From: a virus
Length of the DNA: 47,102 nucleotides
Direction: 5' to 3' (one strand)
IMG/VR virus record: IMGVR_UViG_3300034198_013392
Location: 1-47,102 of that record
Positions 257 through 20,403 of the stretch are shown here, piece by piece. A program made the translations under genes and the position numbers. The notes beneath the pieces are model-generated. The model worked only from the letters and a program-made list of their open reading frames with translations, made no database searches and was not told the origin of the DNA. Within the stretch, counting starts at the first letter, position 1. Each line of letters starts with the position of its first letter.

Positions 257-1162
257 ATGTTAATAACATCGTTCCATTCCAACGAGTTAGATGCGTGGTT
301 TGACGGTAACGTCAAATTACCTGCCTGATCAGCAGGTCAATGGGGTGAATTGCTGGGAAGCCTGACGGTTTCGCAAAACGAAACACAAGGTAATCAGCAG
401 CCAAGTTTACTACGTCGAACTTCCCTCCTATAATAGAGGGGTAGTAGTAAAAAGGTTCAACGACTAGACGATGAGTATCGACAACAATAACTCGTCCACG
501 AGTGCCCCACTCCTTAAATGCTTTTATAGAAACAAATACGAAAGGGTTTACTGGGATCTAATCTCCGTAATACCTTCAAACAAACCAAGAACCTATAAAA
601 CTGAAGAACACCACATTGTCCCTAAGTGTATGGGTGGACACCCAACCAGTAAGGACAACTTGTGCTACCCAACCCTTAGACAGCACTACATTCTGCACCG
701 GCTTCTAAACAAAATGTTCCCAGAACATGAAGGTTTATACTACGCCATCTTTAGAATGAGCAGTTCAGGTAAGAGCCGGGATTATGATTACCTAAGATCC
801 AACTATGTTAGATCCAAGTCCCATAACCAGAAGATTGCTCAAGCCTTAAAGGGAGTCCCTTTATCAGAGGACAGAAAGAGGAGGATTTCTCAATCGAGAT
901 TATCATCCGAAAAACTGCTCAGAGGGGCCAACCACCCAAACTCCAGAAAAGACTTGGAATCCATAAAGGATGACATAAGGGCTATCTGGATTGATAACGG
1001 CAAACCAGGGGACATAGCACTAGGCCAACTCTTGGGTCTAGGAACTAAAAAGAACAAGTACAGGTGTAAAACTCTTCAGAGGTTTATAAAAGAATTTAGG
1101 GAAGAAGATATAGTCTGAACTTCCTAGAAATAGGAAGATGTAAAAGATAAAGAACTTTTACG
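257..1162 (+). mobile_element. Group I self-splicing intron in the major capsid gene
   Basis: The roughly 906-base insert has group I core landmarks in order: P4/Q/R-like sequence around 389-411 (AAGGTAATCAGCAGCCAAG), the 5' strand of P7 near 459-468 (ACGACTAGA), and its 3' partner near 1104-1117 (AGATATAGTCTGA). Two hairpins follow: CTTCCTA-GAAA-TAGGAAG (about 1121-1138) and GTAAAAG/CTTTTAC ending just before G1162. A possible P1 pairs CACGT (252-256) with GCGTG (293-297), putting the usual U-G wobble at the 5' splice site, with G1162 as the terminal G. Removing 257-1162 keeps the capsid reading frame. The endonuclease gene lies between the two P7 strands, so in the P8 region. Confidence 0.85.
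471..1118 (+). CDS. Intron-encoded HNH homing endonuclease
   Basis: This 215-aa protein carries an HNH signature: EHHIVPK (residues 46-52), GG, then N63, with H72 and H76 in the following helix. This matches phage intron endonucleases that cleave intronless alleles to spread the intron. The start codon lies directly after the P7 5' strand, and the last codons (EEDIV and the stop) lie in the P7 3' strand, so coding and ribozyme sequences overlap. The rest of the protein is Lys/Arg-rich, as expected for DNA contact. Base use is more A-rich than in the flanking capsid exons, consistent with a mobile insertion. It has no obvious ribosome binding site. Confidence 0.9.
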   Translation: MSIDNNNSSTSAPLLKCFYRNKYERVYWDLISVIPSNKPRTYKTEEHHIVPKCMGGHPTSKDNLCYPTLRQHYILHRLLNKMFPEHEGLYYAIFRMSSSGKSRDYDYLRSNYVRSKSHNQKIAQALKGVPLSEDRKRRISQSRLSSEKLLRGANHPNSRKDLESIKDDIRAIWIDNGKPGDIALGQLLGLGTKKNKYRCKTLQRFIKEFREEDIV

Positions 1163-20019: not shown

Positions 20020-20403
20020 ATGGCAAAGAAAGGTGGGTCTGCAGGGAGAAAAAGGTGTACTCTGGGCAAAAGTTGTGGGACCACGTGCATTTCCAAGATG
20101 TACCTATGTGTGATGAACATGCACCCTGAGTTGGTAGCTCAGCTTAAATACGCCAGGCAGTTAGTCAGGAGAAAGCATGGCAATAAACATACCTACTTTG
20201 GATCTAACAAACGCCTGTCCCCCCATGCTGGCGGGAGTGGTGTTTCCGCTGGGATAAGCTCTAATGAAATCAACAAGCTCAACAGAGAGTACAAGAAGCT
20301 CCCCGAAGGGAGCAAGAGGAGAGCTGAGATACGGAGGAGAATCCTTGAGCTTGAGATGGAAAGAGGGGCATCCCGAGGTTACGACAACTCCTACTACGAT
20401 TGA
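20020..20403 (+). CDS. Four-cysteine-segment protein without kinase domain, 127 aa
   Basis: Residues 13-30 carry C-x5-C-x3-C-x6-C (CTLGKSCGTTCISKMYLC), the same segment that begins the six kinase-like proteins downstream. The rest is a basic, partly coiled-coil tail (NEINKLNREYKKLPEGSKRR, ILELEMERGASRG). No kinase motifs are present. The protein may share localisation or binding with the kinases through the Cys segment, which could bind a metal; both are inferences. A GGGTAAAG element precedes it, and it converges on the minus-strand gene at 20408. Confidence 0.85.
   Translation: MAKKGGSAGRKRCTLGKSCGTTCISKMYLCVMNMHPELVAQLKYARQLVRRKHGNKHTYFGSNKRLSPHAGGSGVSAGISSNEINKLNREYKKLPEGSKRRAEIRRRILELEMERGASRGYDNSYYD

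Follow-up and report, generated by a model that had tools for sequence, protein, structure and literature searches.

Group I introns are textbook selfish RNAs. Their location in a phage capsid gene, the implied novelty of which was overstated in the preliminary description of the locus analyzed here, has precedents, because phage capsid group I introns have been shown both experimentally (PMC3706429) and by genomics (PMC7886860). In the mycobacteriophage LittleE (Cluster J), splicing of the intron in the major capsid protein (MCP) gene was demonstrated by RT-PCR and protein sequencing (PMC3706429). Like the element described below, that of LittleE is a probable group I intron in the MCP gene, preceded by U and terminated by G, and comes with an endonuclease gene; it differs in being a single intron, in that its endonuclease is encoded on the opposite strand and has been compared to a LAGLIDADG enzyme, and in that the phage and its host are unrelated to those considered here (PMC3706429). 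Lactococcal phage Tuc2009 is also cited in that context (PMC3706429). Recurrent group I introns likewise interrupt the MCP and other core genes in the Delta and Zeta groups of crAss-like phages, where the intron density was called unprecedented and one Zeta MCP is divided into five ORF fragments (PMC7886860). Those are, however, gut phages of Bacteroidetes, with at most 4 interruptions in the MCP example and at most 14 introns per genome, compared to 13 in one gene here (PMC7886860). Several group I introns per gene, with small exons and exon skipping, are described for orf142 of Staphylococcus phage Twort and for Bastillevirinae (PMC11878797, citing Landthaler and Shub 1999), the Twort gene carrying three introns. 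Jug phages similarly contain many short group I introns, 18.5 per genome on average, part of which are backed by metatranscriptome reads, but these are spread over terL (found in 2–3 fragments), nrdD, the polymerase and other genes (PMC12363816). Intron-riddled MCP genes are also known from Faustovirus E12, with 12 introns, 5 of which are group I (PMC6247863), and mirusviruses harbor many spliceosomal introns in morphogenesis genes (PMC12768974). Both infect eukaryotes and include spliceosome-type introns, whereas all introns considered here are of group I and reside in viruses of bacteria (PMC6247863, PMC12768974). The nearest cultured relative by MCP, Synechococcus phage S-CBWM1 (NC_048106), is annotated with two group I introns, one of them accompanied by a homing endonuclease, but both are in psbA and its MCP gene is uninterrupted. 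The element reported here thus belongs to a known kind, and the surprise comes from its relatives, with up to 13 introns in this MCP gene. Our search of the open-licence literature turned up no other short phage gene that holds 13 group I introns and whose internal exons shrink to 5–10 nt.

The analyzed stretch of viral DNA, hereafter the window, is 47,102 nt long and starts within the MCP gene, the beginning of which lies off the contig. The C-terminal part of the gene is encoded on the plus strand by an exon at positions 1–256, ending in TAC ACG T, and a last exon at 1175–1335 (AT CAA CTC to TCC TGA), delineated by comparison with intronless alleles. When spliced in silico, the joined exons yield the last 138 codons of the MCP. 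The encoded product matches phrog_1005 'major head protein' (E 3.8e-11) and shares 67% identity with its S-CBWM1 counterpart. Because the window contains only these 138 codons, any introns upstream of the contig edge are out of view. The window and S-CBWM1 also agree in having a tail-tube-like gene directly downstream of the MCP gene. When the first half of the window was compared with phage records by megablast, no match emerged. The psbA gene is present in S-CBWM1, which infects Synechococcus, and in 4 of the 9 related viral contigs tested; it was looked for and not found in the window contig or in the contigs with 13 introns. Judging from these relationships, cyanobacterial hosts are likely for this virus group. 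Elsewhere in the window, eight proteins encoded on the plus strand (at positions 20056, 21894, 24569, 25630, 27078, 28185, 29493, and 35577) share a cysteine motif in their N-terminal region, C-x2-GK-x-C-x3-C(I/V)-x5-C, for example, CKKGKSCGAACINNTKVC. Several of them continue into a kinase-like domain (weak APH, ABC1, Pkinase, and phage kinase matches), and a similar motif occurs in a structural protein of S-CBWM1. Together they have the appearance of a kinase-like family, tagged by the motif, that expanded within one phage region.

The MCP exons are separated by a 918-nt group I intron in phase 1, positioned at 257–1174 on the plus strand (U256|A257 to G1174|A1175) from the Rfam match, intronless alleles, and the P1 and P10 pairings. 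The covariance model RF00028 matches positions 264–1137 over its full length (model positions 1–253) with 58.7 bits (E 1.8e-12), above the curators' cut-off of 50, which bears out the original proposal of a group I core. The score exceeds the cut-off only moderately because the endonuclease gene splits the core. Rfam searches at E values up to 0.5 revealed no other introns in the 47-kb window. According to the Rfam alignment and a partial hit, the 5′ half of the core extends from the P3 5′ strand to just beyond the P7 5′ strand GACUA (346–470, with GACUA at 462–466), and the 3′ half occupies 1107–1161, where it comprises the P7 3′ strand UAGUC (1111–1115), P9 (1120–1137), and a terminal hairpin GUAAAAG/CUUUUAC (1140–1161), all on the plus strand; the equivalent helices covary in sister introns. 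In the alignment, an insertion of 34 nt with a possible stem lies between P7 and P3, in the place of P7.1/P7.2, such an insertion being a mark of the group IA subclass. The Rfam family 'Burkholderia sRNA Bp1_684' also scored on positions 388–508. Since this score is below the cut-off of that family and the region overlaps the ribozyme core, we took it as either chance or an intron-derived family; Bp1_684 itself may contain group I intron sequence.

The 5′ splice site is defined by pairing of the exon strand CACGU (252–256) with the internal guide sequence GCGUG (293–297), which places the diagnostic U.G pair at the junction U256|A257. Because a 4-bp P1 can often be formed by random 5′ exon ends, this helix alone is weak evidence. 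Immediately upstream of the guide, the strand GAGUUaGAU (284–292) can form P10 with the beginning of the 3′ exon, AUCAACUC (1175–1182), and all intron-bearing alleles compared share one haplotype in this region. The preliminary description had the intron run from 257 to 1162. The 5′ end is correct, but the 3′ end is not G1162 but G1174, the last nucleotide of the tail GAUAACACAUUUG (1162–1174). The 2 positions are 12 nt apart and both keep the reading frame; the alternative in which the intron ends at G1162, just after the hairpin, and the capsid protein gains four residues (AYTY-NTFD-QLTG) therefore had to be weighed. Splicing at G1174 produces AYTY-QLTGTP, and the same reading, TYQL, is found in all 143 intronless alleles compared; the lack of NTFD in every one of the 143 places the intron end at G1174 and refutes the junction AYTY-NTFD proposed earlier. 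Furthermore, the P10 pairing score is 8 (with one bulge) for G1174, a value that random 8-mers reach in 0.4% of trials, but drops to 4 for G1162. The tail (G/U)AUAACA..UG, which G1174 fits, abuts the exon in nearly all sister introns, and the distance from the G1162 equivalent to the exon in these introns is 10, 11, or 12 nt, so that the frame would usually be broken. An end at G1162 is accordingly highly improbable. With the end at G1174, the ribozyme would select its splice sites through P1 and P10 and join U256 to A1175, giving the predicted ligated product CACGUAUCAACUC and restoring the normal capsid protein.

Between the 2 strands of P7, the intron carries a gene for an HNH homing endonuclease of 215 aa (471–1118, plus strand). 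The ORF is intact and matches phrog_655 (E 1.1e-32), whereas searches against Pfam and PDB returned no match and no useful match, respectively. Residues H47, H48, N63, H72, and H76, which make up the H-H...N...H pattern, are invariant in four relatives, and the protein is 63–71% identical to its counterparts in three relatives at the same site. The gene runs through the P3 3′ strand and P8, and its final codons cover the P7 3′ strand (1111–1115), just ahead of the stop codon at 1116–1118. The suggestion that both ends of the gene overlap P7 thus holds for the 3′ end and very nearly for the other, where the ORF begins 5 nt past the P7 5′ strand. Nonsynonymous divergence is low (pN 0.19–0.25) compared to near-saturated synonymous divergence (pS 0.67–0.82), and synonymous change is scarce in the first 15 codons (pS 0 to 0.3), which double as ribozyme sequence. 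These values argue that the gene is kept functional as a protein and is constrained as RNA at its ends. The family assignment, the selection pattern, and the distribution of alleles point to cleavage and homing by the protein, which most likely would cut intronless capsid alleles of co-infecting relatives, with repair then copying the intron in. A dead intron, which no longer splices and leaves the virus with a shortened capsid protein or defective, has very little probability: the core, P1, P10, the terminal G, and the HNH frame are all intact, the exons on both sides are conserved, and readthrough would stop inside the intron, with loss of the conserved C-terminal part of the MCP. The presence of a group I intron and its HNH gene in the MCP gene of a cyanophage-like virus, as originally proposed, is supported by the covariance model, the protein families, the alleles that lack the intron, and the pairings at the splice sites. 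We estimate at roughly 90% the probability of the whole explanation, namely, that 257–1174 is a mobile self-splicing group I intron with a homing HNH endonuclease at one of 16 MCP sites, and that the ORF-less introns of the relatives form one moving lineage.

The insertion site, codon 298 (phase 1), is a conserved site near the end of the MCP gene. When viral contigs were scanned with the spliced C-terminus, the gene was uninterrupted in 64 of the 71 relatives containing the exon region and split at or near the site in the remaining 7, and the best 80 matches of a scan with a full MCP were all uninterrupted. The codon-298 introns of relatives include some with an endonuclease gene and others consisting of an intron of only 329–369 nt. 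All 5 distinct intron-bearing alleles compared (the window and four relatives) carry exactly TACACGT|ATCAACTC, which is complementary to the guide of the intron. Of the 143 intronless alleles, 2 have ACG, 5 have CTC, and a single one has the full TACACGT|ATCAACTC string. This one allele, L004, has many introns elsewhere in its MCP gene. Indeed, L004/L246 (3300042691_044235) contains at least 11 MCP introns, none of them at codon 298, yet has the intron-type haplotype TACACGTATCAACTC, which may represent either precise intron loss or an uninvaded target. In a further virus, L112 (3300032173_000465), an intron at codon 296, 9 nt upstream of the window site, has a guide of its own and contains an endonuclease-like ORF that differs from that of the window, and is an apparent separate invasion of the same stretch.

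In relatives, the group I introns detected by Rfam cluster around the MCP. These genes were resolved by splice-aware alignment to an intronless MCP as guide, requiring exons to end in T and introns in G, with a bonus for the shared tail. The most extensively interrupted gene is that of L106 (IMGVR_UViG_3300044846_005229, 279 kb), in which an MCP coding sequence of 1,053 nt is divided by 13 group I introns at codons 3, 12, 13, 28/31, 50, 53, 64, 91, 93, 106, 118, 298, and 309 and spans about 5.8 kb rather than 1.05 kb; alignment without the acceptor term gave 11 introns, with two merged, and inclusion of the shared 3′ tail gave 13. Each of the 13 falls on an independent RF00028 match. The joined exons form 351 codons without a stop, 303 of which are identical to the intronless guide allele. 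The first coding exon is 9 nt long and the smallest internal exons measure 5, 8, and 10 nt, the shortest being about the size of a P1 strand. Control alignments of L113 and S-CBWM1 yielded zero introns. The spliced alignments obtained for L056, for part of L266, and for the 5′ parts of L004, L014, L035, and L036 were rejected because they had been forced onto truncated or unrelated upstream DNA. Overall, at least 20 contigs have two or more introns in the MCP gene.

That genes with 13 introns are known from metagenome contigs only and that one of the introns has an odd 3′ end could mean that these are not working genes but assembly artefacts or pseudogenes. Yet the same architecture is present in a second contig (3300042569_002782), 100% identical to that of L106 over 17,767 nt, and a third, diverged virus, L249 (95–97% identical in the region), has the same 11 introns before its truncated contig ends. 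The sites are also filled singly or in other combinations in other viruses, including those flanking the tiny exons: 12 without 13 in L109, 13 without 12 and 53 without 50 in L069, and 93 without 91 in L111. Moreover, the spliced frame is intact, the exons are under strong purifying selection (dN/dS about 0.04–0.15), the gene keeps its normal neighbors, and neither the 279-kb nor the 110-kb contig contains a second copy of the MCP gene. Artefacts or decayed genes are therefore a very unlikely explanation. We consider it moderately probable that in some viruses production of the most abundant virion protein needs the removal of 13 group I introns from about 1,050 nt, with exons down to 5 nt, and that most of these introns represent one ORF-less lineage that moved between sites. 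In the clade with 13 introns (L106, L238, L249, and L217), the intron at site 31 retains P1 and P10 without the tail typical of the 3′ end, and no terminal G of this intron yields the wild-type frame and product; its end may be an unusual one, or extra residues may be added to the protein. Three more group I introns lie in a second gene of the L106 contig (L107; 3300044846_005229, 20.4–21.5 kb), which, from its GKDPGLGKSE motif, perhaps encodes a replication ATPase or helicase.

In total, 16 distinct sites in the MCP gene are occupied, at codons 3, 12, 13, 25, 31, 50, 53, 64, 91, 93, 101, 106, 118, 296, 298, and 309, automatic labels having been wrong for a few introns at 91 and 101. No site falls within codons 119–295, for which the chance is about 1e-5 if 16 sites were placed uniformly. 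The DNA around the sites is less variable than elsewhere (mean 0.094 versus 0.125; P about 0.002, or 0.0007 among positions preceded by T), as expected if the endonucleases recognize conserved DNA. Many sites have been seen both with and without an ORF. For the jumbo phage PhiPA3, it has been reported that an intron endonuclease interferes with a co-infecting virus (PMC11620839), and intronless relatives of the window MCP are abundant; the intron and its endonuclease could accordingly be kept for a benefit to the virus, through attack on the MCP genes of co-infecting intronless relatives or through the timing of late genes, rather than as selfish elements. We regard this as unlikely, given that selfish homing alone predicts the patchy use of the 16 sites, the derivatives lacking an endonuclease, and the preference for conserved DNA.

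In a phylogenetic tree of the intron cores, 16 ORF-less introns from many sites form one clade (support 100/100), several sites of the virus with 13 introns are nearest each other, and introns at site 53 pair across two viruses, although the tree is built from 200 columns, contains many poorly supported forks, and may be distorted by recombination between similar cores. Explaining this pattern takes homing at one and the same site as well as movement to new ones. A common fold of 15 ORF-less introns, with helices named after the usual group I order, displays compensatory changes in 32 of the 47 predicted pairs, covering P3, P4, P5, P6, P8, P9, and the terminal hairpin. The guides also track their own exons: at site 31, the pairing is CGAUAAG/UUUAUCG in some viruses and CAAUAAG/UUUAUUG in others. 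We infer ectopic spread of related short ORF-less introns across MCP sites. The lineage would have moved between sites by reverse splicing or with the help of endonucleases acting in trans. For ORF-less group I introns reaching new sites, reverse splicing has been proposed, with direct proof lacking (PMC3984707).

Intron-riddled MCP genes escape gene callers and surveys that use the MCP as a marker. They also raise the question of how 13 ribozymes would fold in order across exons of 5–10 nt, with no exon skipping, for the major virion protein. With 16 sites in one short gene, both empty and filled and often with and without an endonuclease, and with abundant intronless alleles, homing, endonuclease loss, ectopic spread, and possible precise loss become directly testable. 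If our reading is true, the MCP gene of these viruses would be a natural record of group I intron transposition.
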